Assembly (NCBI RefSeq): GCF_004028095.1
Contig: NZ_SBHM01000007.1
Span: forward strand, 992,001-1,056,000
Source of the DNA: Paenarthrobacter ureafaciens
GTDB lineage: Bacteria > Actinomycetota > Actinomycetes > Actinomycetales > Micrococcaceae
Direction of reading: 5' to 3'
DNA: 64,000 nt
Shown in pieces: positions 32,335 through 62,943 of the stretch. The notes below the pieces were generated by a model. The model was not told the origin of the DNA, ran no database searches, and saw nothing but the letters and a program-made list of their open reading frames with translations. Each line of letters starts with the position of its first letter. Position 1 is the stretch's first letter. The position numbers and the translations under genes are program-made.

Positions 32335-32358
32335 GCAGAGGGATCCTCAACCGGGCTT
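32335..32358 (-). repeat. Boundary repeat copy 1 (GGATCC element)
   Basis: On the minus strand AGCCCGGTTGAGGATCCCTC, between two minus-strand immunity-type genes. One of ten good copies in the window. Confidence 0.6.
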
Positions 32359-32394
32359 GCCTGCCATTCTATGCACCGAACGCAGCGGTACGTG

Positions 32395-32826
32395 TCAGTC
32401 AACAAAGCCATTGAAAACGCCATTGGCGTCAGTGCACCCGGTAAAGTCCTCCCAGTCCATATTGGCAATGTTCAAGTTGTTTTCCACGCTGCCTAACTCG
32501 ATGGCAATGCAACGGAACGGAGCTCGGTCTTCCACAAGATCAACAACCAGGATGGGATAAGGAGGATCCAACGCTATATCGTCCACAACAAAGAGAACAG
32601 AGGCTTGGCTCGTGGTGGAAGCCACCGCTTCCCGCAAATCCTCCCAACCGACGCCGTCCCACCCCTTGTCATCAACAACTCGAACGTAGGCACGGAACCC
32701 GTCTTCATCCGGCGATGTGGCCGCCGACATTGCTCCAATCCAAGCTGCCTTATCCGCAAAGGCAGTACGTAATAGCAATGAATCATCGGTGTTCGGAAGA
32801 ATTGGCACACCGCAATACAAGCACAT
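32395..32826 (-). CDS. DUF6924-like immunity-type protein, 143 aa
   Basis: Follows the DUF6924 layout: VPILPNTDDSLLLRTAFADK at the N-terminus, DGFRAYVRVVDD, VLFVVDDIAL, PILVVDL, and ENNLNIANMDWEDF near the end. Small cytoplasmic proteins of this kind occur in immunity arrays of polymorphic-toxin systems. The start is ATG 32826 or GTG 32808, the latter removing a CLYCG extension. Boundary repeats flank it on both sides. Confidence 0.7.
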   Translation of the reverse strand: MCLYCGVPILPNTDDSLLLRTAFADKAAWIGAMSAATSPDEDGFRAYVRVVDDKGWDGVGWEDLREAVASTTSQASVLFVVDDIALDPPYPILVVDLVEDRAPFRCIAIELGSVENNLNIANMDWEDFTGCTDANGVFNGFVD

Positions 32827-32850
32827 GGGGCCGACGGCAACCCTGTATTT

Positions 32851-32873
32851 GTCCGGTGAGGGATCGCTTTACG
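32851..32873 (+). repeat. Boundary repeat copy 2
   Basis: GTCCGGTGAGGGATCGCTTT; the centre is GGATCG instead of GGATCC. It lies between divergent cassette genes. Confidence 0.55.
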
Positions 32874-32951
32874 TGTCCTCTGCCTTGCACCCAGCGCTAC
32901 AGTTGACCGGGCCACGCGATTCATCGGACATGGCGGGTAGGGAGGCCGAGG

Positions 32952-33368
32952 TTGGGAAAGTACTTTGAGCATGAAGTTCTTAGGGGCTTCTACCTGGAAG
33001 ACAGCTGGGTATTGGACATCAATGCAAGTCGAGGGCAGCTTGTCATCACCGCGGAGTTCGTACTGACCGACGAACACCCCTCTTATGCCCCGGCACGCCG
33101 CGGAGAGCACTACTGCTACCGCAAGGGGGTGCTGGTGTTCGATGGTGTAACAGATTTGACCTGGACGGGTCAGCTCAGTTCCCGGCCTTCGCGTGACCCT
33201 GTCGGGTCAGTTGACTACGGCAATATCGACTCACTCATCATCGAGGGAGACCACTACACCGTTGAAGGGGACCTCGGCATAATCGACCTCCAGGCTGCAT
33301 CCATCCGCGTTGCACTGGTCTCGGACGGCACGATCCTTACTTCGCACGGGGCCGCTGCTGATCTGTAG
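32952..33368 (+). CDS. Immunity-type hypothetical protein, 138 aa
   Basis: TTG start six bases after GGAGG. A beta-rich protein: YFEHEVLRGFYLEDSWVLDI, ITAEFVLTDEHPSY, GVLVFDGVTDLTW, GNIDSLIIEGDHYTVEGDLG. I do not know the family by name; its size, lack of signal and placement between two boundary repeats fit an orphan immunity cassette. Boundary copy 3 begins four bases after its stop. Confidence 0.65.
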   Translation: MGKYFEHEVLRGFYLEDSWVLDINASRGQLVITAEFVLTDEHPSYAPARRGEHYCYRKGVLVFDGVTDLTWTGQLSSRPSRDPVGSVDYGNIDSLIIEGDHYTVEGDLGIIDLQAASIRVALVSDGTILTSHGAAADL

Positions 33369-33371
33369 CAC

Positions 33372-33396
33372 GCGCCCGGTGAGGGATCCTTTAACG
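33372..33396 (+). repeat. Boundary repeat copy 3
   Basis: GCGCCCGGTGAGGGATCC, continuing into TTTAACGTG, directly after the preceding cassette gene. Confidence 0.65.
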
Positions 33397-33445
33397 TGTA
33401 GCTGGCCCGGGTCTGTGCGGCGGGCTGGTATGGCAGCAAGTGGTT

Positions 33446-33792
33446 ATGAGTGCCCAGCTGGAAGTTCCAAGGCTTGAAGACCTGAGTGATGTCGGGGTTG
33501 GTGTCGAGACGTCTGATCAGCCTTGGGTGGTCTCCCTAGTGGCGTGGGCGAACGACGGAAGCACCGTGACGCTTACTTGGGACGAGATCGCTGGGTCAGC
33601 GAGCATCCGCTGGCTCTCGGTGACGAGGTGCGCCTCGTTCTTGAACGAGAGACCCCCGTGAAGGTCCGTGTCCGGGACGAGCGCGGCGTCATTGAGTTCC
33701 ACGTCTGGTCCCGCTGGGAAGGAATGGCCGGCGAGTTGATCGTGAGGGTCGGCGAGCACGTTTCGGTCCACGACACACTTCTACGTACATAA
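33446..33792 (+). pseudogene. Frameshifted cassette gene
   Basis: The frame from ATG 33446 reads MSAQLEVPRLEDLSDVGV ... WANDGSTVTLTWDEIAGSAS, then degenerates. From about 33615 a different frame carries a coherent C-terminal part (ALGDEVRLVLERETPVKVRV, then EFHVWSRWEGMAGELIVRVG) to a stop at 33792. Joining the two near 33605-33625 would give a single protein of about 115 residues. Likely an inactivated immunity-type gene; a sequencing error is the alternative. Confidence 0.6.
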
Positions 33793-33805
33793 AAGTTGTC
33801 TAGCG

Positions 33806-33829
33806 TTCGGTCGGGCATCCGCTAGCGGA
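33806..33829 (+). repeat. Degenerate boundary repeat
   Basis: TTCGGTCGGGCATCCGCTAG keeps the CGGT, ATCC and CTAGCGG parts of the element at the expected junction. Weak match. Confidence 0.3.
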
Positions 33830-33837
33830 CGACTGGG

Positions 33838-34323
33838 CTACTCGAGGAGCGTCTTCACGCGTTCGACATACTGTTGGCTCAGGAATTCGTAGTTCCTCTC
33901 ATACTTGGCTAGATTTTCGGATTCGTCGGGCGGCAGCGTGAAGTACTTCCCGATTTCGAAAACTGATGTGCCGTCGTCCGCGCTGTGCAGGGTGTAACGC
34001 AGTCGGGCTGCTGGATCTTCGTCCCCTATGTTGCGGGTGATTGCCATTTCCCCAGGAATCTCCTCCATAACTTCCACAACAGACACGTGCTCAACGCCGG
34101 CAACCACCGAGATAAATACCTGGATCTCACCGAGGCCCTCCACGTCAGGAGCACGAAAGCCACACACAGTTTCCGGCGAAAGGAGTGGTGCTTTCTCCGC
34201 CGGTTTGATGAGGTCCCAGATCAACTCGCGTGAGGCTTTTATGGGGGTAGACGCCGACACGAAATACACGGGCGCTTCAGCTAGGGGCGACGCTGCTGTT
34301 GATTTCTTGAACCAGGGACTCAT
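33838..34323 (-). CDS. SRPBCC/START-like protein, 161 aa
   Basis: A predicted helix-grip fold: VYFVSASTPIKASRELIWDL, KAPLLSPETVCGFRAPDVEG, GVEHVSVVEVMEEIPGEMAI, RLRYTLHSADDGTSVFEI and a long C-terminal helix (LAKYERNYEFLSQQYVERVK). SRPBCC proteins bind hydrophobic ligands; the role here is unknown. ATG 34323 is used; the frame continues upstream through ATG 34365, overlapping a resolvase remnant read in another frame. It is in the same orientation as the first island genes. Confidence 0.7.
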   Translation of the reverse strand: MSPWFKKSTAASPLAEAPVYFVSASTPIKASRELIWDLIKPAEKAPLLSPETVCGFRAPDVEGLGEIQVFISVVAGVEHVSVVEVMEEIPGEMAITRNIGDEDPAARLRYTLHSADDGTSVFEIGKYFTLPPDESENLAKYERNYEFLSQQYVERVKTLLE

Positions 34324-34405: not shown

Positions 34406-34881
34406 GCATCGACTGTACCGAAGATTGCTTTGTACGGTTCTGGTGGGACGTTTTGGAGAGCATAGTTTTGGGATGAAATCCTGAGGCGTGTCGCATCCTT
34501 TCGGAATGTCCGGCAAGGGCGTCCCACTTCCAAGGATGTGGGACATCTGCCGCGGGGGAAACACAGCACGGGCAGGTGACTCGGGAGGACTCCCACTGGA
34601 ACGGCGGATGCTTTGGCCTCCAAATATGTCTCACCTTCGGCCTCCGACGTGGCTTTGTTCGCCGGTGGCCTACGGTCAGGGTCACTTTCATTCCCACACC
34701 CCGGCCGCCACGTCCGTGACGGTCTGTTCCTTCACAGACAGTCGGTGCTGACGTCGCCTTCGCGGTGTCGAGCAAGCTGGCAGTCCTTCGCTTAGGCTGG
34801 GAGCACGCAAAGGGCACCCGCCAATGACGGTCCCTCACGCTTCGACGGAAATGTGTCCCCGCGAGGAAGAAGAGTTTGAGC
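34406..34881. other. Intergenic stretch with hairpin, resolvase upstream remnant
   Basis: No gene seen. It contains a 7-bp inverted repeat GTCCCAC/GTGGGAC at 34521-34544 around TTCCAAGGAT. TTCCAAGGAGGTGGGACGTG at about 36130 is a close match. The part nearest 34405 (TTCGGTACAGTCGATGCGTG on the minus strand) matches TTCGGTACGGTGCACGCACG upstream of the other resolvase remnant. Confidence 0.4.
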
Positions 34882-36084
34882 ATGTCCTATGACTTGACCG
34901 TCTATTGCCCGGGGTCTCCCACTATCGAAGAGGTGGCTTTGCTTGTCGGAAACACCCGTGGCTTCCACGTGGATCCAGCCAATAGCAACGACACCGGTGT
35001 GGTGGTGCTTCGCGGTGTGAAGCGGGACTACAGCTTCACCGTTGACGGTCCGTTCACCGTGGAAGTTGAGGATGTGCCCGAGGAAGTCGCTGCGGTGCTA
35101 TCTGACGCAGCCACGATGTTCCAGATTCTGGTTGAAGGAACCCAAGAAACGGAGATCCCGCACGGTGTCCGCTTCGCGAAGAAACTCGCGAAAGCCTGCC
35201 ATGGGGTGGCCGTGGATGAGCAGACTGATGAAGTGTGGCCCAAGCCCCGTGTAGCGAGAACTCCGTCAGCAGCGAAGGAGAAACGCGCAGTCAACTCTGT
35301 TTGGGTGAGCTGGCTCCTCCCCGAGGACGAGCTGCCGGAAGACTTTCTCGCACGCTACCTTCAGATGGCCCAAGAGCTTCTGCCGCAAGCTGTGCCGGTG
35401 CGTTTTGGCAAATATGAACCCCTCCAAGGGCGGTTTGATACGGCCGGCGCCGAAGGATTCATCACTGAGTACTACAACAGCGAGATCAATGACTGGAGCC
35501 TTTACTACAAAAATCCTTCCCCGGTGACCTACGGGTCCATCAGCAGTCACGAACTTCAGTGGGGCAACCCCTTCACACGGATCATCCTGGCCGTGGACGA
35601 GCCGGCCTTAGCAGATGAAGCATTCAGGGCCGCCGTGCGAAGTTTCTTCCTCACCGTGGCCTCCGAACTCCGAGCGACGTACGCCTGGGCTGAGTTAGAT
35701 AACCGCCAAGACATGACCCGGGTGCCCCTCATCTACTTGCCTCCCACACAATGGGTTGGCTTTCAGCCCTACCCCGTGTGGTGGGTCTGGGCCGGTCCTC
35801 GGCTTGTGCCCGACATTGGGCGGTTCCTTGGCCCTGATGCCATCGAGCACTCCGGAGGACTGTTCCGTGCGTACAGCGACGAACCTCTAGACCGACACCA
35901 ACTCTCGGTGAAGCTCGGCCCCAAGAACCTGCCTTGGATACCCGCCAATTATTCCGCGACCTACTCGGACGAATACATGGCGTATCAACCTCTGGCAACC
36001 GCAGAGGTCGTTCCTGTTCCCCTCCGAAACCGTGAACCCCTAGAACTGCCCTATGCTTTCCGCAACCCACCTCGAAAGGCATAG
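34882..36084 (+). CDS. Hypothetical protein of the immunity island, 400 aa
   Basis: Starts MSYDLTVYCPGSPTIEEVAL and is soluble with mixed structure. Features include SFTVDGPFTVEVEDVPEEVA, FITEYYNSEINDWSLYYKNP and WVGFQPYPVWWVWAGPRLVP. The first part resembles the N-terminus of small proteins found near toxin loci (inference from pattern only). The start was chosen as ATG 34882 behind GAAGAAGAG; TTG 34876 is also in frame. Outward-facing resolvase remnants flank it, suggesting the segment was inserted or rearranged as a unit. Confidence 0.65.
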   Translation: MSYDLTVYCPGSPTIEEVALLVGNTRGFHVDPANSNDTGVVVLRGVKRDYSFTVDGPFTVEVEDVPEEVAAVLSDAATMFQILVEGTQETEIPHGVRFAKKLAKACHGVAVDEQTDEVWPKPRVARTPSAAKEKRAVNSVWVSWLLPEDELPEDFLARYLQMAQELLPQAVPVRFGKYEPLQGRFDTAGAEGFITEYYNSEINDWSLYYKNPSPVTYGSISSHELQWGNPFTRIILAVDEPALADEAFRAAVRSFFLTVASELRATYAWAELDNRQDMTRVPLIYLPPTQWVGFQPYPVWWVWAGPRLVPDIGRFLGPDAIEHSGGLFRAYSDEPLDRHQLSVKLGPKNLPWIPANYSATYSDEYMAYQPLATAEVVPVPLRNREPLELPYAFRNPPRKA

Positions 36085-36342
36085 GGCACCGACAGATCGG
36101 ATTTTCGGGGTGTGTCCCGCTGTGTTCGGGTTCCAAGGAGGTGGGACGTGAAAACGGTGTAGCGTATAAGCCTTTTTTCCGGACACCCTGGGCAGGCGAC
36201 TTTGGACATCCGTGCAGCCGACTTCGAAAACGGACATCCCAAATCAGCACCACACCCGAAATCGTTCTGTACCTGAAGTTATGCCAAAACGCGCGACAAA
36301 GAGGACCGTCACAGGAGCGACTTTCGGTACGGTGCACGCACG

Positions 36343-36423
36343 GAGGTCGGATACGCGGCTCTCGACGGCCAAGCAGGACCTGAGCCGGCAGCTGGACGCC
36401 TTGGCCGCGACCGGCATCACCTA
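36343..36423 (+). pseudogene. Second serine-resolvase 5' remnant, frameshifted
   Basis: The sequence encodes LSTAKQDLSRQLDALAATGI then a stop, matching residues about 8-27 of small serine recombinases. The preceding GTCGGATACGCG (VGYA) is in another frame, so the gene start is broken. It points rightward, while the copy at 34364 points leftward. Confidence 0.65.
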
Positions 36424-36541
36424 GGGTGTTTGCTGATAAGAGGTCCGGAGCCACTAAGGACCGACCAGGGCTCCAAGCAGTCTCCTAGGCCAATGATCGG
36501 TTATTGAAAGACGTCGTAGCTTTGCAGAGGCCCGTGATTCC

Positions 36542-36565
36542 TGTCCGGTAAAGGATCCCCTTACT
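36542..36565 (+). repeat. Boundary repeat copy 4
   Basis: TGTCCGGTAAAGGATCCCCT, ending in TTAC, near the right end of the first island. The surrounding 36424-36740 stretch has no gene; GTCTCGCAAACCTTCAGCGA near 36585 resembles the site at 31528. Confidence 0.6.
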
Positions 36566-36740
36566 GCACCTTGAAGCGTCGATTAACGTCTCGCAAACCT
36601 TCAGCGAGATAAGCATGCGCCGATCCCCGCGGCGTCCCCCCACGGGGGCGCTCCCCATCTACGAATCAGCAAGCCGCGACCTCGCGCCGGCTGACCCACG
36701 TGCCAATCACTTCAGGCATTGCGCCGGCTTCGAGCGCGCC

Positions 36741-37502
36741 CTATTGCGGCAGCGCCTCGAGCGAATTGAACGTGTACAACTGGATGCCTTCAACACCCGG
36801 CCGGGCAGCCAGCTCCTGAATCAGGGCGTCGGGTGCGTATCTTTCGCCCAGGATGAGCTTGCGGGCAAGAGGTCCCTTGCGGCTGAGGAACTTGAGCGAG
36901 GCGCCCACTCCAATCCTGCTTGCCAGGGAGATGAGCTTCGCTTTCGGAACTGCACCAGCAACTCCGGCGTGGACGGGAAGGGTCACGCCCTCCTTGCGGA
37001 GCAGGGCGACGTAATTGTGGATGGTCTCCGCCGAGAAACACATCTGGGTGACGATCTTGCCGGCAAACTCCTGTTTCTCCAGCAACGCATCCATCAGCTG
37101 CAGGCCATTGATGGTCGGGTGGCCTTCCGGGTAGCCCGCGACGCCCACCGACATCGACCCGCCGCTCAGTTCCGCAATGTCACGCACAAGTTCGACGCCG
37201 GTGGAGTAGGCGCCCGCTGCTCGCGGGGCGTCACCTCCGATCGCAAACATTTCCGTGATCCCTGCCGCCGCACAATCATCGAGGATCCCGGACAAGTGCT
37301 CCCGGCTTTCCACGCACTTGGCGGCGATATGCGGAACGGCCACGAAGCCCAGCTCGCTCAGCTTGATCGCCGTCCTCACGGTGGATTCGACTCCGTGGTG
37401 GGGCAGGCAAGTGATGCTGACCGTCGAACCGGCCGGCAGCGCACTGTTGACCACGTCAACGATGCCATCGGTAGGGATGATTTCAACGCGGGTGGCAAGC
37501 AT
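36741..37502 (-). CDS. Methylenetetrahydrofolate reductase-like protein
   Basis: A 253-residue TIM barrel of the MetF superfamily. Landmarks are TVSITCLPHHGVESTVRTA, VPHIAAKCVESREHL, EMFAIGGDAPRAAGAY, VGVAGYPEGHP, and QMCFSAETIHNYV with LPVHAGVAG. It is shorter than Escherichia coli MetF. As the last gene of the glycine-cleavage/serine operon it would act on the methylene-tetrahydrofolate that gcvPTH and glyA make. It starts 30 bp after lipA. The electron donor is not clear. Confidence 0.82.
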   Translation of the reverse strand: MLATRVEIIPTDGIVDVVNSALPAGSTVSITCLPHHGVESTVRTAIKLSELGFVAVPHIAAKCVESREHLSGILDDCAAAGITEMFAIGGDAPRAAGAYSTGVELVRDIAELSGGSMSVGVAGYPEGHPTINGLQLMDALLEKQEFAGKIVTQMCFSAETIHNYVALLRKEGVTLPVHAGVAGAVPKAKLISLASRIGVGASLKFLSRKGPLARKLILGERYAPDALIQELAARPGVEGIQLYTFNSLEALPQ

Positions 37503-37532
37503 GGTGAGTCCTTTGTGCTGGCTGATAATCAG

Positions 37533-38540
37533 TTAGCCGTGGGCGGCGAGGATGGTGGAGGCTTCCTGGCGGGTGGTGCCGGAGGATTCGATGTGGGCCA
37601 GGCCTTCGGGGATGGCCCATCCTTTCTTCCGCATCGCGGTGGCCCAGAGGCGCCCGGCGCGGTAGGAGGAGCGGACCAGGGGCCCGGACATGACGCCGAG
37701 GAAGCCGATCTCTTCGGCCTCGTGCTGGAGGTCCACGAATTCCTGGGGCTTGACCCACCGGTCCACGGGCAGGTGCCGCTCGGAGGGGCGCAGGTACTGG
37801 GTGATGGTGATCAGGTCACACCCGGCATCGTGGAGGTCCCGGAGGGCTTCGGAGATTTCCTCGCGGGTCTCGCCCATGCCCAGGATCAGGTTGGACTTGG
37901 TCACCATGCCCAGATCCCGGCCTTGGGTGATCACGTCCAGGGAACGCTCGTACCGGAACGCCGGACGGATCCGCTTGAAAATCCGGGGCACGGTCTCGAC
38001 GTTGTGCGCGAACACCTCGGGCTTGGACTCACAGATCGCGGCGATGTGTTCGGGTTTGCCGGAGAAGTCCGGGATCAGCAGTTCCACCCCGGTGCCGGGG
38101 TTCAGTTCGTGGATCTTCCGGACCGTTTCGGCGTACAGCCACACGCCCTCGTCCTCGAGGTCATCACGGGCCACGCCGGTCACGGTCGCGTAGCGCAGCT
38201 GCATCGCCTGCACACTCCTGGCCACTTTGGTGGGTTCGAAGCGGTCCAGCGGGGAGGGTTTGCCGGTATCGATCTGGCAGAAATCACAGCGCCGCGTGCA
38301 TTCGGACCCGCCGATCAGGAACGTCGCTTCCTTGTCTTCCCAGCACTCGAAAATGTTCGGGCACCCGGCCTCCTCACACACCGTGTGCAGGCCTTCCTTC
38401 TTCACCAGGTTCTTCAACCCAACAAACTCAGGGCCCATCTGGACCTTCGCTTTGATCCACTCAGGCTTACGCTCAACCGGGACCGCCGCGTTACGCTGCT
38501 CAACGCGCAGCAACTTACGGCCTTCAGGTGCCAGGGTCAT
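37533..38540 (-). CDS. lipA: Lipoyl synthase
   Basis: A 335-residue radical-SAM enzyme that inserts two sulfurs into octanoyl groups on lipoyl domains. The auxiliary cluster motif is [12 protein letters not shown] (C-x4-C-x5-C) and the SAM cluster motif CTRRCDFC (C-x3-C-x2-C). Further landmarks are [20 protein letters not shown] and [16 protein letters not shown] 38540 follows AAAGGAA. In this operon it would lipoylate GcvH. No lipB gene is adjacent. Confidence 0.95.
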
Positions 38541-38563
38541 GGAATTTCCTTTGTGATCGATTT

Positions 38564-39976
38564 TCAGCATTCGACGACGTTGACGGCGAGGCCGCCCATC
38601 GCGGTTTCTTTGTATTTGTGGGACATGTCCTTACCCGTCTCACGCATGGTCACGATGACTTCATCAAGGGAAACCCGGTGCGTGCCATCACCCCACAACG
38701 CCATCTTCGCGGCGTTGATCGCCTTCGCCGCAGCGATCGCGTTCCGCTCAATACACGGGATCTGCACCAACCCCCCGATCGGATCACACGTCAACCCCAG
38801 ATTATGCTCCATCGCGATCTCCGCAGCGTTCTCCACCTGAGCCGGGGAACCACCCATCACCTCAGCCAACCCCGCAGCAGCCATCGACGACGCCGAACCC
38901 ACCTCACCCTGACACCCAACCTCCGCACCGGAAATCGAGGCCTGCTCCTTATACAACACACCCACCGCACCGGCAGCGAGCAAGAACCGCACCACCACAT
39001 CATCCCGGTCCGCCTGCGTGGCCTGATCCATCCCCGGGGCATAATGCAACGCGTAATACAACACCGCAGGAATGATCCCGGCAGCACCATTGGTCGGAGC
39101 AGTGACCACCCGCCCACCGGAAGCGTTCTCCTCATTGACCGCCAACGCGATCAGGTTCACCCACTCCTGCCAATACTTCGGATCGTTCCGGTCCTTGTCC
39201 TCCTTCAACAACCGCTCCAACCAATCAGGAGCACGACGGCGGACCCTCAGTCCCCCGGGCAGCACACCCTCGCGCTTGAGCGACGTTTCAACACAGGCCT
39301 CCATCACCGACCAGATATGCAGCAAACCCTCCCGGATCTCCTCCTCGGACCGGGACGCCCGCTCATTGACCAGCATGATGTCGCTGATCCCCAGCCCCTT
39401 GGACGAGCACCGGCCCAGCAACTCCGCAGCGGTCCGGAACGGCAACGGCAACTCCGCCTTGGACTCCTCCAACTCAGCCCGCGCCGCGTCCTCCTCGCCC
39501 TCACGAACAATGAACCCGCCACCGACCGAGAAAAACGTCGCCTCCCTCAGCACGTTCCCCCCGGCATCGGTAACAGCGAACTTCATCCCGTTCGTATGCC
39601 GAGGCAACACCGTCAACGGATGCAACACCATATCCCCCACGGCATACGGCAACAGCACACCCTCACCCGAAGCCCCGGCCAGGTTCAGCATGCCCGTCTC
39701 CGCGATCGCAGCAAGACGCTCCTCCACCTCACCGGGCAGGATCAACTCCGGCTCAAACCCCTCCAAACCCAGCAACGTAGCCGTAAAGGTGCCATGACCC
39801 TTACCCGTCGCAGCCAAAGAACCATACAAATCCACCCGCAACCCCGCCACAGAAGACAGAACACCGGAATCACGAAGCTCCCGCGCAAACACCGCCCCAG
39901 CCCGCATCGGACCCACCGTATGCGAACTCGACGGACCAATACCCACGGAGAACAAATCGAAAACACCAACAGCCAT
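38564..39976 (-). CDS. sdaA: L-serine ammonia-lyase, iron-sulfur type
   Basis: A 470-residue single-chain enzyme (beta plus alpha domains) converting L-serine to pyruvate and ammonia. The N-terminus is [20 protein letters not shown]. The 4Fe-4S cysteines lie in [18 protein letters not shown] and [22 protein letters not shown] 39976 follows AAAGG; the frame is open further upstream but without a ribosome site. It drains serine made by glyA from glycine. The codons are strongly C-ending, suggesting high expression. Confidence 0.95.
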
Positions 39977-40157
39977 GGCTGGGACCTTTCGGGGTCGAAG
40001 AAAAAACAACGGGAAGCAAAACAAAAGGTGGGAGCTGGGCCAAGTCCGAGCCAAGGCCGGCCCAGCCCCCGTGGAGGTCCAGTACAAACCTCCAACCCGG
40101 TGTAAATGTGCAGCATCCGTTCCCAGCAAATGCCACACCCGGGAGATCAATGCCAGA

Positions 40158-40225
40158 CCGATTCGGGGGTTCGCTGCGCAGTGTGCCGTGCGCACGGCAC
40201 ACTCCGCAGCTAGCCCACGAATCGG
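40158..40225. terminator. Large imperfect hairpin between glyA and sdaA
   Basis: Two 34-base arms beginning CCGATTCG pair with about five mismatches; the inner 24 bp (AGTGTGCCGTGC and complement) are perfect. It lies in a 276-bp gap within an otherwise tight operon. It may partly terminate the gcv transcript, so sdaA-lipA-metF may also have their own promoter. Confidence 0.6.
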
Positions 40226-40252
40226 ATGTGAGGTCCGCCGGACGATCAGCCC

Positions 40253-41568
<1,316 letters not shown>

Positions 41569-41572
<4 letters not shown>

Positions 41573-41952: not shown

Positions 41953-41973
41953 CTCAAAATCCTTCTCTCGTGA

Positions 41974-54449: not shown

Positions 54450-54458
54450 GAGACCCCC

Positions 54459-55187: not shown

Positions 55188-55235
55188 CGCCCTCGGGGCG
55201 GCGTTCCGCAGGCTCATCGAGAGCACTGGCCGTTT

Positions 55236-55273
55236 CAGCCTGCCCGGTGAAGGATCCCTCACCGGGCAGGCTG
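55236..55273. repeat. Boundary repeat copy 5, best palindrome; also a terminator
   Basis: Arms CAGCCTGCCCGGTGA / TCACCGGGCAGGCTG (15 bp, perfect) flank AGGATCCC. It ends the hydantoin-like operon and marks the left edge of the second immunity island. Its core is the most symmetric copy of the GGATCC element. Confidence 0.8.
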
Positions 55274-55294
55274 TCTTCTATGAGGGCCTGGGTG

Positions 55295-55639
55295 TTAGGT
55301 CAGCCGCACCCTGAGGGCAAGGGCCACCTCATCAGCGGGACCACATATCTCGGGCGTAGACAGTTGGAATAGTGCATCCGCCAAGAAATCGCGATCCTCG
55401 GGATTCAGTGCAATATCTTCTCGGCCCTGCAGTTCCTCAGCCCACACACAAAGATCATCTGCGCTAATCTTCCCGGCCCAAAATTCATCAAGTGCATGGC
55501 CGATATCCCGAGCAAAGGCAGTGGCGAGCTCTTCCTGCGATGGCCATTCAAAAGTCGACAATCGAGCCAAGGCCTCCTGCAACGGGCACCGCAACTGGAT
55601 GAGGTCATATACTGCCTCTCGTCTTTGTACCTGCGACAC
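55295..55639 (-). CDS. Immunity-type small acidic protein, 114 aa
   Basis: GTG start behind GGAGGA. All-helical and acidic; it has the segment KISADDLCVWAEELQGREDI followed by LNPEDRDFLADALFQLSTPE, a layout (WAE-x-L-x-GR-x-DI) common in small immunity proteins beside Rhs and CDI toxins. No cognate toxin is nearby. Boundary repeats lie on both sides. Confidence 0.7.
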   Translation of the reverse strand: MSQVQRREAVYDLIQLRCPLQEALARLSTFEWPSQEELATAFARDIGHALDEFWAGKISADDLCVWAEELQGREDIALNPEDRDFLADALFQLSTPEICGPADEVALALRVRLT

Positions 55640-55715
55640 TAAGTAAGTTCCTCCTTCAGTCGAGCAATCGCGGAAACTAATCCGAACTGGCTAGAAGTCT
55701 GTCACGCTATCCGAC

Positions 55716-55744
55716 GTCCGTTTGAGGATCCCTTACCGAACGAG
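55716..55744 (+). repeat. Boundary repeat copy 6
   Basis: CCGTTTGAGGATCCCTTACC, then GAACGAG. On the other strand it reads TTCGGTAAGGGATCC. It lies between divergent cassette genes. Confidence 0.6.
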
Positions 55745-56906
55745 TTGACCGTGAGTGAACGGCGCCTTAGAAGTAGCCTTGGCTGGAGCCGTTACCGCAT
55801 GTTGAAGCCACTGCAGCGACCGGAGGGCACCAGGGTACAGACCATGGTGATTCGACGGGAGTTGGTGGAAATGTGGTCGCCACTTCCGTGGGAACGGCTC
55901 TGTTTCAGGATGACAGGGGATGGATGCATGAAGGCTGTAGATGAATCCGCACGATGGCGCGTGCTCCTCTTGGCGGGCAGTGGAACTGAGCTTCTGCCCG
56001 GCCATCGCTTTGCGCTTAAGGGACTGCCTTCCGAACCGGCGCCTGTGGATGTCGAACTCTGGACGCGCTTCGAGGACCAGAAGGCTCGATAAAGGGCTTC
56101 TCGGCCAGTTGCTCCAATCCTTCCTAGCCTCCCCAGAGTCGGCCCGTCTCAGCCGAGCGATCGGACAGTACCACGCTGCGCTCCAATACTGGAACACCAG
56201 GGGCCAAGCTTTCGCACTAGCCCACGCCTACATGGCTCTCGAGGCTCTTGCGCCTGCCGCCGAGCGGGCCCAACAGGAGGCTCTCGGCTTCGAGTCTCGC
56301 GAGGACCATGCGCAGCACAGAGGGATCGATGTGACGCGTTCGAACTGGATCGAGATGCTCCTAGCGAGAGTGCGACGAGACGTCATCTGCCAAGGAGATA
56401 TAGACACTTACGACGCGGCACGAAGGGCAAGCGACGGACTAGAGCACGGGAGCATAGCAGTGTCAGAGTACCGAGCGAGTGCCAATCTCCACGCCCGAAA
56501 GCTCCTTGATTATGTTCGAGCAGGGGTACTGAACCTTCTCGTTCTTGAAGCAGAAACGCACTCTGGGCTGTTGACCAAGAAACTGGTCGACACAAGCCCG
56601 CTTTGGATTGAGATGAGGGGACATCTCATAGGCCAAGTGATGGACCCAGAGGGGATGGGAGAACCACCGAATTCGTTCCCCGTTATGGAATGGCGAGTGT
56701 CTCTCGATGACGTCAAACGCGTCGAAGACGACCGTTTAGAGGTAAGTCCGCGGATCGAACTGACGATGCATTTTGCGGAAGGTGTTCAGTTTGTGCCAGC
56801 CGAGCATAGGCTCGGTTTCGGGCTGAATAGTGCTGACGCCTTCAATGTTCGCTGGGGGATGCAGGACACGGCCGAGGAGAGCGAAGACCCGTCGGGACGG
56901 GACTGA
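55745..56906 (+). pseudogene. Frameshifted cassette gene, about 385 codons
   Basis: The first frame (TTG 55745 or GTG 55751) reads ERRLRSSLGWSRYRMLKPLQ ... RVLLLAGSGTELLPGHRF ... VELWTRFEDQKAR and stops at 56092. The second frame takes over at LDKGLLGQLLQSFLASPESA, runs through QYHAALQYWNTRGQAFALAH and ends at 56906. One extra base near 56075-56090 explains the split. No slippery heptamer is visible, so it looks like decay (or a sequence error) rather than programmed frameshifting. Function unknown; the second half is helical and cytoplasmic. Confidence 0.65.
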
Positions 56907-56969
56907 CACACGAAACGTGGCGTCCTGCCATCGGTTTTTGCACGGCCAGAAGCCTCGAGGCATTTTCGT

Positions 56970-56995
56970 CCAGTTTGAGGATCCTCTACCGGGCG
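56970..56995 (-). repeat. Boundary repeat copy 7
   Basis: On the minus strand CGCCCGGTAGAGGATCCTCA, ending AACTGG, after the frameshifted gene. Confidence 0.65.
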
Positions 56996-57017
56996 TTGTT
57001 ACAACCCAGCTAGAAGG

Positions 57018-57317
57018 TTAGGTGAAGGACTCGGGGACTGGACCCAACAGAGGTTGCGCATCCGCAGCATTGCGGTAGGACGGCTCCCAGGGCAACCGTC
57101 CGGTGGAGTCACTCCAGATTGCTTGTAGAGCCTCTACTTTGCCGTACACTTCTGCCACCGCCGTCAGCCCTGTGACGTTTTCTGCCGAGATGAAAGCGAT
57201 GGGAGCTGGCGGTTCGGTGAGGTCGGTGGTGATGCTTCCCGGGCTGAAGCGCCGACATGACGTACCGCCCACCCGTGTTCTTCGATCAACGACAGCAGTT
57301 GATTGAAGACAGGTCAT
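57018..57317 (-). pseudogene. DUF4262-like gene fragment, frameshifted
   Basis: The C-terminal part (VAEVYGKVEALQAIWSDSTG, then RLPWEPSYRNAADAQPLLGP) matches the DUF4262 tail. The N-terminal DUF4262 signature (LLSLIEEHGWAVRHVG) is present but in another frame, directly after a stop and without its own start codon. The gene is therefore broken near 57240-57310. DUF4262 genes are common passengers in immunity arrays. Confidence 0.6.
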
Positions 57318-57408
57318 TGCTGTCCTTAAGTTTCACGGACTCAATCTAGCAACGCCGTGGAAGCTGTGTCGTCAATCGGCAGCGGTGTCGATTGACGACA
57401 CCGCTGCA

Positions 57409-57438
57409 CGCCCGGATGGGGATCCCTTAGCGGGGCAG
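57409..57438 (+). repeat. Boundary repeat copy 8
   Basis: GCCCGGATGGGGATCCCTTA, then GCGGGGC, between two minus-strand cassette genes. Confidence 0.6.
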
Positions 57439-57440
57439 GG

Positions 57441-57902
57441 TTAGGGGTCAAGGATCGGCGCCCAGTACGCGACGTAGTCACCGCCGGGCGAGCACACAAT
57501 CAGTAAGTCTCGGGGTCCTCTGAATTGCCATGCCTCGTAAAGAGGGTGCGGCGAAACCGTCAGCGTCGCCTGGCCAAGGGCGAGACGTAACGTACCATCG
57601 TTGCCGATCGTGGCTTCCGATACCGTCGTCGAGGTCAGAGGTAAGAGGACTTTACCTGCCTCTGTCGTCAGTGGCTCGCCGGTCCACCGTATTTCGCCAG
57701 CTTCGAGGGTGAATTCCGTCTCGATAGTGATCTCGAAGTCGTTTCCTAATTCCAGGTGGACTCCGTAGTCTAGGCGGAATTTTGCAAGTTGGTACCCGAG
57801 GACAGCCTGGATGAGATCATTGGCGATTGTGATTTCCTGCTCGTCCCTTCTTCCGTGGATGCCTCCGGCTTCGGCTCGGATGAACGGCCCGTCGTCGGTC
57901 AT
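57441..57902 (-). CDS. DUF6188-like immunity-type protein, 153 aa
   Basis: A beta-rich protein: FRLDYGVHLELGNDFEITIE, GEIRWTGEPLTTEAGKVL, IGNDGTLRLALGQATLTVSP, YEAWQFRGPRDLLIVCSPGG. The end (bulky aromatic, then CSPGGDYVAYW) is the typical close of DUF6188. ATG 57902 follows GAGG with five bases between; the longer frame upstream runs through a boundary repeat and was rejected. Target unknown. Confidence 0.7.
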   Translation of the reverse strand: MTDDGPFIRAEAGGIHGRRDEQEITIANDLIQAVLGYQLAKFRLDYGVHLELGNDFEITIETEFTLEAGEIRWTGEPLTTEAGKVLLPLTSTTVSEATIGNDGTLRLALGQATLTVSPHPLYEAWQFRGPRDLLIVCSPGGDYVAYWAPILDP

Positions 57903-58044
57903 TTTGCCTCGCGTGATTGATCGTTTGCGGAACGCCCTTTGCTTGCTGGACAAGGGGCCTTTATGGAGCCTCGGGGGCAGGACAGCTAGCACGGTAGCAG
58001 GAATATGCCTCCCGGTACCCGCCGTAGTCCAAGCGACATATTTG

Positions 58045-58070
58045 TCCGGGTAAGGATCCCCAACCGTGCA
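58045..58070 (+). repeat. Boundary repeat copy 9
   Basis: TTGTCCGGGTAAGGATCCCC, then AACCG, between the DUF6188-like and SUKH genes. Confidence 0.6.
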
Positions 58071-58113
58071 GGGACAGGCACTAGGCGAGTTCATACCCGG
58101 AAGAATTATCCCA

Positions 58114-58683
58114 TTAGTGACTCCAATAATCCGCTCTTGGATTAAGGGATCGCGCAAGCTCCCACCATGCCTCATCGTCCGTTTCAAGCCAACGTTCCTC
58201 CAGGAAGAAGACTTCCTGGTCATAAGCCTCAGCAATCGTTCCAAGCATGTCGCTTACGGACAGGAACTGCATTCTATGGACGTCTTGTTCGAAACGGAAG
58301 TTGAATATGGGCTGGACATCTTCCGTCGAGCAATCAATAAACGAGAAATCTCCTCCACCATTAGTCAAGATAGGCAGCCACGAGGGGCTGACATTGAGTT
58401 CATCCATCTTCTCGAAAGTTCTGAATGCCTCGTCGATACTCATGAGATAGAAGCCCGGAAGGAGATGGGCGTCATCCAAGACAACGCCTGGAGCAACGTT
58501 TGTTCCGTTATGCCAGCCATACAGTGCAGCGAGCTCCCTGCCGAGTCGCAGACCATGTGCCCCGAAACGGCGACGAGCCTCTTCAGCGTCCGCTCCAGGA
58601 TTTAGCAGCTGAACTGTCGGGCGCTGAAGCCGCACCAAGTGTTCGTCAATGGTGCTCATGGCTTCCGTCATTGGTTTCATCAT
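58114..58683 (-). CDS. SMI1/KNR4 (SUKH) family immunity-type protein
   Basis: 189 residues with the SUKH pattern: GRELAALYGWHNGTNVAPGV, LLPGFYLMSIDEAFRTFE, SWLPILTNGGGDFSFIDC and a long C-terminal tail (VFFLEERWLETDDEAWWELA). SUKH proteins are widespread immunity proteins of polymorphic toxin systems, each binding a particular nuclease or other tip. ATG 58683 is used, with in-frame ATGs at 58680 and 58668. The cognate toxin is absent, so it is an orphan. Confidence 0.82.
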   Translation of the reverse strand: MMKPMTEAMSTIDEHLVRLQRPTVQLLNPGADAEEARRRFGAHGLRLGRELAALYGWHNGTNVAPGVVLDDAHLLPGFYLMSIDEAFRTFEKMDELNVSPSWLPILTNGGGDFSFIDCSTEDVQPIFNFRFEQDVHRMQFLSVSDMLGTIAEAYDQEVFFLEERWLETDDEAWWELARSLNPRADYWSH

Positions 58684-58855
58684 AGAATGAACCTAACTCG
58701 ATCCCTGAGCGCACAGTCGCTCGGATGCCCCTCCCGCCGGAGGAAGTCCGATAGCATTGCTCGAAAAGTTGGACTTGTCACCAAGAATCTTCGGAAAGCA
58801 GTGCTCCATGATGGTTGGAAAACCTTCCCGCCCTGGGTAGTGGCGGCGGGGTGAG

Positions 58856-59284
58856 TTGAAACCCAGATTACTTTTGCTGGGAGCAATCCTTGGGGTAGCT
58901 GGATCGGCCGTCTATTTCCTCAGTTTGGGGTGGGGAAAACCAATCAAATTGGGTGAGCCCCTATGGGCTCTGTTCGCCTTTTTCTTTATCAGCTTGGCGA
59001 CAGCGGCGCTCGGGCTTCTCGTTGCCGGGGTCGTGGATGTCTTTGAGAGCGTAGTGCCGGAATCGTCATCGCGATCGAGGCGTGCGCTGTCTACTGGTGC
59101 CGTTGCAATGATGGCTTCATCTATCGCGACCTTTGCCTTCTTCGCTGTTCTTCCCCTAGTACTGCATGCTGATCGCTGGGCGACGGCTGCTGTCACAGGG
59201 ATTCTCGGAGGTGCCGCATTCGGCGCGCTGTTCTTCTGGCGCTCCGACCCACGAGGCCTGACCGCTGAAACAGCGCCCGAATAG
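58856..59284 (+). CDS. Small four-span membrane protein, 142 aa
   Basis: TTG start behind GGCGGGGTGAG. Hydrophobic spans: LLLLGAILGVAGSAVYFLSL, LWALFAFFFISLATAALGLL, MMASSIATFAFFAVLPLVL and ATAAVTGILGGAAFGALFF. The loop between spans 2 and 3 is Ser/Arg-rich. Membrane immunity proteins of this size protect against pore-forming or peptidoglycan-directed tips, but this is only suggested by position. The stop abuts a degenerate boundary repeat. Confidence 0.65.
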   Translation: MKPRLLLLGAILGVAGSAVYFLSLGWGKPIKLGEPLWALFAFFFISLATAALGLLVAGVVDVFESVVPESSSRSRRALSTGAVAMMASSIATFAFFAVLPLVLHADRWATAAVTGILGGAAFGALFFWRSDPRGLTAETAPE

Positions 59285-59474
59285 GGGACCCTAAGCGGTC
59301 ACGGAAACGAATTTGTCTAAGAGCGGTCCGATGCCAGGGTCAGCACCCTTCGAAAACAGCTCAACCCTGCAACTTCTCGCACGGAGGCAGCTGGAATCCC
59401 TGCCGGCTGCCGGTGACCGCTTAATCATTTGGGGCCCATGGGTACGTCTCGTTGACTAGGCGGTCGCGAGGTAG
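59285..59474. repeat. Degenerate boundary repeat and 11-bp inverted pair before the Rhs fragment
   Basis: GGGGACCCTAAGCGGTCACG at 59285 resembles copy 8 (GGGGATCCCTTAGCGG). Its TAAGCGGTCAC is repeated in inverted orientation as GTGACCGCTTA at 59413. No gene lies between. An in-frame stop at 59472 precedes the Rhs frame. Confidence 0.45.
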
Positions 59475-61781
59475 ACCATACCTGCAAAGCCCACGACGGC
59501 TGCGGCGACTTTTGACCGCATTAGTTACACCTTCACGAACACCACCACCTACACCGGCAAAACCGACGTTGCCGGAACCCCGGCCATTGCCGGGCTACCG
59601 GCCGAATCCGTCGGGTACGGCTGGGACGGGTTCGACAACCCGACAGAGATTGTCGGCAGCGGCAACAAATACGCCGGCAACGGCATGTACAACCACCTGG
59701 GGCAGCTGACCAAATACACCCAAGCCGACAGCAACTACTCCTCCGGAGCCAACACGACCGGCAGCATCGACGTGACCCTCACCTGGGACGCAACAACCGG
59801 ACGGCTGAACAAAACCCAGGCCACCAACCACCTCGGCGTCAACTCCCCGGACCTAGGCACCACCAGCTACAAATACGACCCGGCCGGGCGGATCACCTCA
59901 CGCCAACAGGCCTACACCTCACGCCCGTCCTCACCGACCGACAACCAGTGCTACACCTACGACCACGCCGACCGGATCAAAGCCGTCTGGACCCCGGCAA
60001 CCACAACCTGCGGCACCGCCCCAACCCCCGTGGCCGCAAGCGTGACAGGGCTCGGCGGCCCTGCACCCTACGCCCAGACCTACACCTACACCGCAGCCGG
60101 TGACCGGTCCCAGGTCAAACGCTTCGGATCCAACGGCACCCTCGCCGTCACCGAAACCTACGCCTACCCCACACCCGGAACCGTTGGACCCCACCGGGTC
60201 CAGTCCGTCACCGGGTCCACCCCCACACCGCAGACCTTCACATGGGACGCGGCAGGGCGGATGACGGGCCGTTCCGGGCAAACCATCACCTACACCCTCG
60301 ACGGTAAAATCGACACCACCACCGGAACCAGCACTGTCCCGGCCAACCCGAACCCCAATGCCACAGCCGGCACACCCCCAGCACCAACAACCGGTGCCGG
60401 GAGCACCGGGGCACGGTACTACGACGCCGCCGGGAATCTCGTCGGGATCATCGACGGAACCGGGACCACCATCACCCTGGGCAGCATCACCGCCCACCAC
60501 AACGCAGCAACAGGTGCCAAGACAGCGACCAAGACCTACACCTTTTCCGGTAAAGTCGTCGCCCAACGCACCGCCACCAGTGCCGGCACCAAAGTCGCGT
60601 TCATCATCGGCGACAACATCAACACCGCCCAAACCATGGCACTGCCCAACACCACCGTCGGAACCGGGGCCGTCACCCTTGTCCGCCGCACCGACCCGCT
60701 CGGCCTCGCCCGCGGCGCCAACAGCACCGGAACCGGCACCGCAGCCTTCACCAACGCAGCAGCCGCCACTTCCGGGACAGGAACCAACGCCGCCAGTGCC
60801 ACAGGGTTCAGCGCCGTCAACGGCTACATCGCCGGACTCGACGACAGCATCAGCTCCCTCACCCACGTCGGAGCCAGGGACATGGACCCCGTCCTCGGCG
60901 TATTTACCGCGCCAGACCCCATCCTCACGACAGAAGACCAACGGGGGTTCACCCCGTACACGTATGCCTTCGGCATGGTCATTAACACCTCAGATCCAAG
61001 CGGGTTGAGGCCAAGTTGTGGATGCACTGAGGAAACAGGAATCTCCTACCCGTCTTCATCTAATACACCACTACTCGGAAACGCACCTGTCTCCTCCTCA
61101 CCTTCGGTGCCATCGTGGCTCAAGGTAACCAGCCCGGCTCCCTCGTCTTCTCCGGGAAACATTGACGACTGGGCCTTCAAGACCGACTTTGGTGCTGGAT
61201 ATGGCGGACCGACAAAGTCAGATTTCCGGAAGCTCGGCATAGGAACATGGGAAGGATTCGCGATCATAGCTGGAGGCCCCCTAGGCGTTCTGGCTTGCAT
61301 ACCAGGGTTTGGAGCGTGCCTAACAGGAGGACTTGTCGGCACGGGACTGCAGGCGGCCGGAAACGCGGCCGATAACGGTGGGGAACTCGACGAGGACGCC
61401 CAGCTGCAAGCAGAAATCGGGGCCGCAGCTTCGCTCATACCCGGTGGAGGGGCTGCGAAAGGAGCAGCTAGAGGTGCCCTAAAGGGAGGATCCTCCAATT
61501 CCCTGAAAGCGGCTATGGAGGCACTTTCCCCTGAAATTCGTGCCAATGTTGATGACGCGATTTCTCGAGCAGCCACCGGAAAAGTCCGCTTTCCTGGTCA
61601 CGACGGCAAACCTTACGAAAATAGACTGGGCCAGCTGCCCGAAGGGACGTATACAGAATGGACTGCAGCTCCCGCTGGAGCAAGGCGCGGACCGGATCGA
61701 ATAATCATCGAAGGATCCGAGAAGAACCCCAACGCCATCTATTATTGGGACCATGTGAATGCACCCATTCAGATCAGGTAG
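59475..61781 (+). CDS. 5'-truncated Rhs/YD-repeat protein with a barnase-type C-terminal toxin
   Basis: The frame opens right after a stop at 59472 and already reads YD-repeat sequence (YTFTNTTTYTGKTDVAG), with the first ATG only at 59685; the N-terminus, export region and most repeats are missing. YD repeats (YKYDPAGRITSRQQ, FTWDAAGRMTGRSG) lead to the core end HVGARDMDPVLGVFTAPDP and NTSDPSGL. A glycine-rich linker follows, then a tip (VRFPGHDGKPYENRLGQL, YTEWTAAPAGARRGPDRI, YYWDHVNAP). Glu (61656), Arg (61698) and His (61752) are 14 and 32 codons from the Glu; barnase E73, R87 and H102 are 14 and 29 apart. Hence a guanyl-type RNase tip. Confidence 0.8.
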   Translation, partial: TIPAKPTTAAATFDRISYTFTNTTTYTGKTDVAGTPAIAGLPAESVGYGWDGFDNPTEIVGSGNKYAGNGMYNHLGQLTKYTQADSNYSSGANTTGSIDVTLTWDATTGRLNKTQATNHLGVNSPDLGTTSYKYDPAGRITSRQQAYTSRPSSPTDNQCYTYDHADRIKAVWTPATTTCGTAPTPVAASVTGLGGPAPYAQTYTYTAAGDRSQVKRFGSNGTLAVTETYAYPTPGTVGPHRVQSVTGSTPTPQTFTWDAAGRMTGRSGQTITYTLDGKIDTTTGTSTVPANPNPNATAGTPPAPTTGAGSTGARYYDAAGNLVGIIDGTGTTITLGSITAHHNAATGAKTATKTYTFSGKVVAQRTATSAGTKVAFIIGDNINTAQTMALPNTTVGTGAVTLVRRTDPLGLARGANSTGTGTAAFTNAAAATSGTGTNAASATGFSAVNGYIAGLDDSISSLTHVGARDMDPVLGVFTAPDPILTTEDQRGFTPYTYAFGMVINTSDPSGLRPSCGCTEETGISYPSSSNTPLLGNAPVSSSPSVPSWLKVTSPAPSSSPGNIDDWAFKTDFGAGYGGPTKSDFRKLGIGTWEGFAIIAGGPLGVLACIPGFGACLTGGLVGTGLQAAGNAADNGGELDEDAQLQAEIGAAASLIPGGGAAKGAARGALKGGSSNSLKAAMEALSPEIRANVDDAISRAATGKVRFPGHDGKPYENRLGQLPEGTYTEWTAAPAGARRGPDRIIIEGSEKNPNAIYYWDHVNAPIQIR

Positions 61782-61785
61782 GACC

Positions 61786-62280
61786 ATGAAGATTGATGAC
61801 ATCAGCAAAAAGTATGCCGTTCACCTGGGCGTCACCGGTTCCCTACGCGACCGTCTCAAAGCCGATGCCCATCTACACGGGATGATGGTCTTTGAACTGG
61901 ATTTGTCGGGGCTCTCTGATGAGACGGCCCTATGTGCCTACCTCGAAGCAAAGTTTAGGTATCCATATAGGACCGTGGGACTCGATGCCGCCATTGACTT
62001 AATCTCAGACCTTGAGTGGTTCGGGAACAGGAAGGGTTACTTAGTGATTGTTCGTGGGGCCACCGAAACATCGCCCATCGCTGGCGACTTTATATCCATG
62101 TTTCCAAATATCCTTGATCGGTGGCGAACTCAAGACGTCCCCTTCGTCATTGTGGTAGAGGAAAAGGGCGAGCGTCTACTGGCAGCTTTGGCAGGTGCCA
62201 ATGAGTTTATGGAGAGGGCTGGCCGCCTCCCTTGGGCTCAACCTGGAATTGGTCCCGTTGATGTTGTCGTGCATCCTTGA
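61786..62280 (+). CDS. Barstar-family immunity protein
   Basis: 164 residues starting five bases after the toxin stop, behind AGGTAGGA. The barstar pattern is clear: MMVFELDLSGLSDETALCAY, then LEAKFRYPYRTVGLDAAIDL with the D-x-L-S-D-L-E-W helix, and GYLVIVRGATE. Barstar blocks barnase-type RNases by covering the active site with an acidic helix, which fits the RNase tip encoded just upstream. A C-terminal extension of about 50 residues goes beyond classical 90-residue barstar. Confidence 0.85.
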   Translation: MKIDDISKKYAVHLGVTGSLRDRLKADAHLHGMMVFELDLSGLSDETALCAYLEAKFRYPYRTVGLDAAIDLISDLEWFGNRKGYLVIVRGATETSPIAGDFISMFPNILDRWRTQDVPFVIVVEEKGERLLAALAGANEFMERAGRLPWAQPGIGPVDVVVHP

Positions 62281-62943
62281 TGTCACTACCTGAGCGTCAG
62301 GTTTGGATCTCTCAGCCCCGATTCCTCTCCCGGGATAATGATTTTGGCGTCTCTAACGGCTTCAGTGGTGAGATTTCCTAAGCGGTAATGAAGGCATTCA
62401 CTCTCGGAGCAGCCTGTTCTCGCGCCAGCTGTTACGCCAGGCGAGGCCCGTTGGCTGCATTGCCCGCTCGGGGATCCTCTACCTGTCGCGAATCCCGAAC
62501 GAGAGATCCAGACGTCCGGGTCAGCTTTCCTCAACATTCAACAACGACTCGTCAAACCAGACATCTTCGTGCCCAGGCGTCAAGAGGAATCGCCACCCTG
62601 CGGGCAAGGCAAGAGAGGGAACGACTTCAGAACACCGTGTCGTCAGATGCTCGACGTACAACGGAACGAAGAAGTCATCCGCCGTTCCTAGGTCTTCACC
62701 GCGCCAGATGAACCAGCCACTCTACCCAGCCGCGGCTGCATGCCGCAGACCGTTAAGTGGATAAACATGAGGCGACCACACGTTTTTGGACACTCCCCTT
62801 TCACGCCCTGCAACGGTGGTGTAGGGACAGCCCCGAATCTGGCGGTCAGCCGCATCTGGGCGGAGAGGATCGAATCGTGCATATGTAACATTGGTTGGGT
62901 CCCCGGAGAGTAGTCCAGTGTTTGTGTGAGTTTCGTGTCCGAG
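62281..62943. other. 660-bp stretch with boundary repeat and a possible gene remnant
   Basis: No complete gene. On the minus strand, 62286-62400 encodes SECLHYRLGNLTTEAVRDAK ... GEESGLRDPNLTLR before a stop, which looks like the C-terminal end of a lost cassette gene lying between barstar and the boundary repeat at 62462. GTGTCCAAAAACGTGTGG on the minus strand near 62780 may be part of an insertion-sequence end. Confidence 0.4.
62462..62488 (-). repeat. Boundary repeat copy 10
   Basis: On the minus strand ACAGGTAGAGGATCCCCGAG, then CGGGC. It marks the right edge of the second island. Confidence 0.5.

Follow-up and report, generated by a model that had tools for sequence, protein, structure and literature searches.

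The 64,000-nucleotide (nt) stretch of Paenarthrobacter ureafaciens DNA considered here (the window; contig NZ_SBHM01000007.1, positions 992,001 to 1,056,000) carries, in two islands, repeated copies of a palindromic motif of 26 nt, made of two 12-nt half-sites with a 2-nt centre between them. What might this motif be? It is very probably the site-I-type crossover site used by a small serine recombinase (resolvase/invertase family), and would mark off mobile cassettes from one another in arrays that, in Arthrobacter and its close relatives, resemble those of integrons. The reading is drawn from sequence comparison, in which the motif recurs upstream of the recombinase family, is linked to its genes, and marks at its centre the point where cassette homology breaks.

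A preliminary description of the window had listed ten good and three weak copies of the motif, and our scan finds 12 of these 13 to be real. Each of the ten good copies lies at most a few nt from the position first given, and the weak ones at 33805 and 59275 are genuine; the third weak copy, at 31440, finds no support, with no profile score of at least 9 there. The copy described as a near-perfect hairpin at 55236 is indeed a near-perfect palindrome (55242-55267) that matches 20 of 20 consensus letters. An extra site at 31699-31724 (centre 31712, central AC), absent among the matches of our first covariance model, scores 16.0 bits with the refined profile described below. At least 16 matches to the symmetric 20-letter consensus occur at 8 places in the window, compared with a mean of 0.17 in 60 random first-order Markov sequences. 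On the 4.4-Mb genome, a covariance model built from the 12 copies returned the same 12 sites, all within the two islands; these match by construction, and the informative part is that there are no others, the own genome having no further match below E=3 (the next is at E=3.17). The copies are intergenic and lie between convergent, divergent and tandem gene pairs; the immunity type of the island genes is documented in part only, by Pfam. The families recognised in the islands are SUKH-1 and barstar, both of which we take to be immunity families, DUF6924, DUF6188 and an Rhs fragment with a ribonuclease tip, the remaining scanned island genes having no Pfam family and NCBIfam naming 0 of 10 window genes.

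The motif is abundant in relatives. A symmetric profile, refined on the window and on 20 motif-bearing regions fetched from the same genus, finds 240 sites in 374 kb, where about 11 are expected in random sequence, and a larger set of regions yields 302 unique sites of at least 14 bits with a median spacing of 789 nt. The centre of these 302 sites is AT in 226, AC/GT in 48, AA/TT in 23 and something else in 5. AA centres nearly all point the same way within an array (31 of 32, P=5e-5). Sub-families of AA-centre sites occur in loci L091, L094, L151 and L239, all co-oriented within each array. The two half-sites of one site match at 6.79 of 12 positions and half-sites from different sites at 6.90 of 12, so the arms do not co-vary, which speaks against selection for a hairpin. 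Among 61 same-genus genomes, covariance matches, which are clustered, occur in 51 at E<=1, where chance alone should give roughly one match per genome, and in 22 at E<=0.02, the own genome included. At E<=0.02, matches were found in 5 of 198 genomes of an order sample, two of them from the genus itself (the own genome and one more), and in 2 of 197 of a class sample (own included); the genus, order and class surveys used stricter filters, and remoter sites may have drifted past the model. The scan of this genome and its relatives that the preliminary description proposed gives clustered matches and not an even intergenic spread. A general intergenic repeat was considered and is out, given the empty remainder of the own genome, the absence of sites from 20 random same-genus regions and the few matches outside the genus.

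Where does exchange take place? Homology blocks between genomes were collected near sites (at least 88% identity, 250-2500 nt; longer blocks were left out), and none of 83 crosses a site in either genome. Among 50 blocks without a recombinase gene, 7 have both ends, and 12 have one end, at a site in both genomes, whereas a random position falls within 30 nt of a site in 3.3% of cases. The half-sites themselves locate the break. In 24 pairs of homologous cassette ends from different genomes, the inner half-site is 0.899 identical and the outer half-site 0.597, compared with 0.57 for unrelated sites; the inner half is more alike in 20 pairs, equally alike in 3 and less alike in 1 (P=3.3e-5), and the centre is the same in 20. 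None of these pairs is at a recombinase gene, 22 that were having been set aside; they involve 42 distinct sites and are not all independent. A first comparison with pairs at recombinase genes still included gave 0.876 versus 0.596 in 33 pairs. Odd, non-consensus inner halves move with their cassette, as at window 32864 and L077 9696. Cassettes that are 95-98% identical occur in different genomes amid unrelated flanks, and site-to-site duplications are found within arrays, one of a cassette pair (98.0%) and one of a tandem two-cassette block (99.9%). Because cassette homology breaks at the site centre, the motif is best read as a site-specific recombination boundary and not a terminator, and of the options put forward in the preliminary description it is the recombination boundary that is strongly supported.

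Comparison of sibling species gives the same picture at the scale of whole arrays. The flanks of G029 and G006, including the recombinase region, are 94.6-94.7% identical; homology runs on for 12 nt beyond the res site I centre and then ends; it restarts 14 nt short of the centre of another res-like site (12.3-12.4 bits), which faces inward and is followed by a conserved end block. Their interiors, of 5.2 kb and 3.3 kb, have no common piece of at least 120 bp. A third genome, G026, has the same flanks and one cassette in common with G029 (86.7%), in opposite orientation. In three further species at one locus (L080, L152, L153), homology of 90.6-92.4% ends at the outer edge of site I, although the site I of L152 scored below the cut-off. 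The counter-evidence named in the preliminary description, strain comparisons with breakpoints unrelated to the motif, was looked for and not obtained, apart from one plasmid pair taken up below. As a separate observation, L206, L225 and L232 (labelled Propioniciclava, Microbacterium and Rothia) share a 1.1-kb piece that is more than 99% identical, with one break at a site centre.

Several arrays end at a conserved stretch that adjoins the start, or a start remnant, of a small serine recombinase gene encoding about 190 amino acids (aa). Resolvase and HTH_7 domains are present in 3 of 3 intact members scanned (in L153, PF00239 at 4.2e-41 and PF02796 at 4.2e-08), and the closest solved structure is that of a DNA invertase, 4m6f, followed by the gamma-delta and Tn3 resolvases. 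Ten members have a mean column identity of 82% and an invariant Ser9 in GYAR.S, presumably the catalytic serine. A contig labelled Vibrio cholerae 35D (L242), perhaps a contaminant, also encodes a recombinase, with 74% identity to the Arthrobacter query. A profile from the 12 window copies alone reaches a score of at least 8 between -170 and -95 in 35 of 80 named relatives of the recombinase, compared with 5 of 446 control windows, and it is for this reason that we read the array motif as the crossover site of the recombinase family. With the refined profile, a site of at least 14 bits is centred 115-155 bp upstream in 37 of the 80 relatives, 25 of them at 128-133 bp, the distance that we expect for res site I. 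Of these 37 relatives, 21 carry names outside Arthrobacter, Pseudarthrobacter and Paenarthrobacter. Sites of at least 18 bits are present at 19 of 30 loci that carry a member of the recombinase clade, a set that takes in broken copies and short contigs, at 3 of 10 loci whose serine recombinase lies outside the clade (about 40% identity) and in 0 of 20 random same-genus regions. Named loci with at least 3 sites near a recombinase belong mostly to Arthrobacter, Pseudarthrobacter and Paenarthrobacter, and also to Sinomonas, Frigoribacterium, Cryobacterium, Agromyces and a few others.

How might such a system work? A recombinase dimer would bind each site, cut at the central dinucleotide and rejoin, and cassettes would be excised, inserted, duplicated or inverted as units, with circular cassette intermediates. 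Both cassette orientations could arise because the AT centre is palindromic. A res-like region with the recombinase gene stands at one end of some arrays only; many arrays, both window islands among them, have none, and these would be either relics or served in trans. We lean slightly towards a broader proposal, a gene-capture platform of an origin independent of integrons: the site I of a serine resolvase would have become the boundary between cassettes, one array end would be linked to res, the palindromic AT would allow insertion in either orientation, and AT, AA and AC centres would sort cassettes into compatibility groups.

A number of findings weigh against the crossover-site reading or its mechanism. 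The centre of res site I is AC in 26 of 26 hand-picked ends, whereas array sites at the same loci have AT in 117 of 132. Serine recombinases are expected to need matching centres, so simple insertion by recombination between res and an array site is left unexplained; array sites might instead exchange mainly among themselves and seldom with res, or a mismatch between centres might be tolerated and then repaired. Co-orientation of AC/GT centres is not significant (30 of 38, P=0.27). Of the 50 recombinase-free blocks, 31 have neither end at a site in both genomes, and a 9.3-kb block of L152/L153 downstream of the recombinase, beyond the length limit of the block comparison, crosses a 14-16-bit site. 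The plasmid pAO1 (L155, NZ_CP089294.1) carries an array, and the related pNtRootA4 is without a 3.98-kb part whose start lies 8 bp from a site centre and whose end coincides with no site. Most arrays found by the motif have no recombinase of the clade nearby: a clade relative (at least 52% identity) lies inside, or in a neighbouring stretch of, 4 of 20 motif-fetched regions (L080, L082/L100, L089 and L090/L110). Co-occurrence of recombinase and sites by genome is weak (12 of 20 versus 19 of 41 genomes with at least 3 matches, Fisher P=0.42); a rank test across genomes gave P=0.03.

Could the sites be relics of resolvase-bearing elements, their cassettes having been shuffled through cointegrate resolution or in the distant past, without any insertion going on today? 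Much can be said for it. The window genome has no match to the recombinase clade and no intact copy, only a degenerate fragment at about 36188-36478; several recombinase genes in relatives are broken; several relatives with the upstream site have no array; and the differing res and array centres and the 4 of 20 regions with a clade relative fit it as well. However, intact recombinase genes exist in relatives, such as that of Pseudarthrobacter chlorophenolicus Mor30.16 (L189), and the 95-98% identical cassettes amid unrelated flanks, together with the 99.9% tandem duplication, point to recent events, so that we consider relics without present activity rather unlikely.

The other readings fare worse. 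RecA-dependent exchange that uses the repeated intergenic sequence as short homology, the homology anchor of the preliminary description, would account for array sites that are alike and present at most junctions, but the conserved core is just 26 nt, the inner half-site moves with its cassette, the same profile matches the site upstream of the recombinase and AA centres are co-oriented; since the exchange point is the centre of the 26-nt site, such an anchor is very unlikely. The description's shared terminator, a bidirectional terminator or other RNA hairpin carried by each cassette, finds its best argument in the almost perfect palindrome at 55242, but 15 of 54 sites lie between divergent open reading frames (ORFs) and the random regions hold no site; the arm covariation test and the divergent gene pairs rule it out, and we give it next to no credence. 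Finally, the sites could be insertion targets hunted by transposons, and res-hunting transposons are described in two reports (PMC12217951, PMC7765201). Here, however, no transposase appears among the best 25 of the 72 Pfam families found in 149 cassette ORFs, and well-matched cassettes are bounded by sites at both ends and not by transposon ends, which makes transposon targeting of this kind highly improbable.

Judged from family matches, the cassettes carry many functions, immunity being one of them, and the preliminary term "immunity cassettes" proves too narrow. Cassette ORFs were picked by a mechanical rule, and 149 of 169 chosen ORFs were analysed, window ORFs, recombinase ORFs and some others being left out. 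The commonest Pfam families, again among the best 25, are GNAT (4), SUFU (3) and NUDIX (3), with 2 each of APH, DUF4265, tautomerase, barstar, ankyrin and AAA. Two cassette genes (alignment A4) match APH(3') aminoglycoside phosphotransferases, up to 1.7e-90, and PADLOC gave rare matches in the same 149 ORFs, with at most 2 members for any family. The ORFs flanking the 54 sites are convergent at 18, divergent at 15 and tandem at 21, and relative to the recombinase end 53 cassette ORFs point away and 29 toward it.

Which known system does this resemble? Integrons are characterised by cassette arrays, the tyrosine recombinase IntI and folded attC sites. As in integrons and in clusters of attC sites lacking an integrase (CALINs), mostly single-gene cassettes with diverse small-enzyme content lie between recombination sites, and some arrays, but not others, end in a recombinase gene accompanied by a site of its own. 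Unlike in integrons, the recombinase here is a serine recombinase, the site is short and symmetric, without the co-varying arms of an attC, and cassette ORFs occur in both orientations. The IntI model TIGR02249 (E<=1e-60) matched 0 of 61 genus genomes, and no control genome either. Exchange of cassettes unit by unit between sites is found, apart from the blocks without a shared site end and the plasmid pair; as to insertion at a primary site beside the recombinase gene, homology ends at site I, but the AC centres there contrast with AT in arrays. The integron likeness suggested in the preliminary description is real; the window has no intact clade recombinase, but in some relatives a serine recombinase stands at the array end. 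The Tn3/gamma-delta resolvase-res and Hin/Gin inversion systems have the same recombinase family and the same site format, two 12-bp halves with a 2-bp centre. They resolve cointegrates or invert one or a few segments, whereas here up to 26 profile sites in 20 kb (L077) separate independent genes.

Modules bounded by pdif/dif sites use XerCD and dif-like sites and are not known to have a dedicated recombinase at the array end. In a report on Acinetobacter, gene modules bounded by short recombination sites form islands on plasmid and chromosome (PMC12907356), and to that extent the layout is the same as here. The recombinase-associated acquired interbacterial defence (rAID) arrays of Bacteroidales place a recombinase, predicted to be of the tyrosine type, beside a series of short genes that share one orientation and include orphan immunity genes, SUKH among them; conserved motifs lie between the genes, and the mechanism of biogenesis is called an area of active research (PMC12247911). 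The recombinase beside an array with immunity genes and intergenic motifs is shared, unlike the serine recombinase and the two gene orientations seen here. By this comparison the arrays would be nearest to integrons in behaviour, to rAID in ecology and to the Acinetobacter dif module islands in layout. To our knowledge, integrons, rAID and pdif modules all depend on tyrosine recombinases and none of them uses a serine recombinase, and no serine-recombinase cassette system was found among the matches listed in a literature of largely open papers. If the reading is true, a counterpart built on a serine recombinase and short double-stranded sites would point to more than one evolutionary origin of cassette capture, and would offer a recognisable route by which Actinobacteria share immunity, defence and small-enzyme genes, including aminoglycoside-phosphotransferase-like ones; a 26-nt site and a 190-aa recombinase make the cassette idea directly testable.

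The features of island 1 are as follows; a strand is given where there is one.

31600..31627, minus: conserved end block, apparently the remnant of a res-like end, here without recombinase; 24 of 28 identical to the GCCCGGTGAAGGTGCCCTAAACGCTACA type
31699..31724: res site-I-like crossover site, centre AC read into the array, 16.0 bits; left end of island 1
31712..32344, minus: cassette 1, 192-aa ORF 31732-32310
32331..32356: array site, centre AT
32344..32864, minus: cassette 2, DUF6924, ORF 32395-32826, Pfam 9.5e-38
32851..32876: array site, centre AT
32864..33387, plus: cassette 3, 138-aa ORF 32952-33368
33374..33399: array site, centre AT
33387..33818, plus: cassette 4, ORF apparently interrupted (the first frame tried had 3 stops)
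33805..33830: weak array site, centre AT, 18.8 bits
33818..36556: interval with ORFs 33838-34323 (minus; a shorter start of the listed frame) and 34876-36084 (plus) and the degenerate recombinase-gene fragment
36543..36568: array site, centre AT, 22.1 bits; right end of island 1

The GCCCGGTGAAGGTGCCCTAAACGCTACA-type block adjoins the recombinase start in relatives and recurs at other array ends, and the site at 31699..31724 has the AC centre of the other hand-picked recombinase-end sites (it is one of the 26). The degenerate fragment at the right end is 75-80% similar to plasmid genes named recombinase or DNA invertase. Three cassettes have counterparts with both ends at sites in both genomes: cassette 1 (window 31714-32346) is 95.3% identical to a pAO1 cassette (L155 3149-3781), cassette 3 (window 32850-33393) is 93.6% identical to L077 9166-9709, and cassette 4 is 89.0% identical to L078 9336-9781. 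Just outside the res-like end, a 126-aa ORF (31006-31386) has no Pfam family and by eye looks like an Xre/MbcA/ParS antitoxin.

Island 2 comprises the following.

55242..55267: array site, centre AT, near-perfect palindrome, 20/20 consensus letters, 32.0 bits; left end of island 2
55255..55729, minus: cassette, 114-aa ORF 55295-55639
55716..55741: array site, centre AT
55729..56982, plus: cassette, 321-aa ORF 55941-56906, no Pfam family
56969..56994: array site, centre AT
56982..57423, minus: cassette, 99-aa ORF 57018-57317
57410..57435: array site, centre AT
57423..58057, minus: cassette, DUF6188, ORF 57441-57902, Pfam 1.5e-23
58044..58069: array site, centre AT
58057..59288: interval with SUKH-1 gene 58114-58683 (minus, Pfam 3.8e-07) and 142-aa ORF 58856-59284 (plus)
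59275..59300: weak degenerate site, 15.4 bits
59288..62475, plus: interval with Rhs-ribonuclease fragment 59685-61781 and barstar 61786-62280
62462..62487: array site, centre AT, 20.2 bits; right end of island 2

The cassette at 55255..55729 is 90.9% identical to L080 5932-6391, with both ends at most 23 nt from sites in both, and that at 57423..58057 is 85.6% identical to L089 8760-9406, one L089 end lying at a site. The interval 59288..62475 has Pfam matches to Ribonuclease (1.1e-06), RHS_repeat (5.6e-05) and Barstar (1.8e-07); the Rhs fragment, which is C-terminal and tipped by a ribonuclease, and the barstar immunity gene (together 59685-62280) share one site-to-site interval. The 18-kb stretch between the islands (36556-55255) has a site on each side and holds genes from an MTHFR-like one through to an amidohydrolase and Amdase. 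Parts of it resemble DNA near the arrays of G042 and G022, and it contains a glycine riboswitch on the minus strand at window 46124-46223.

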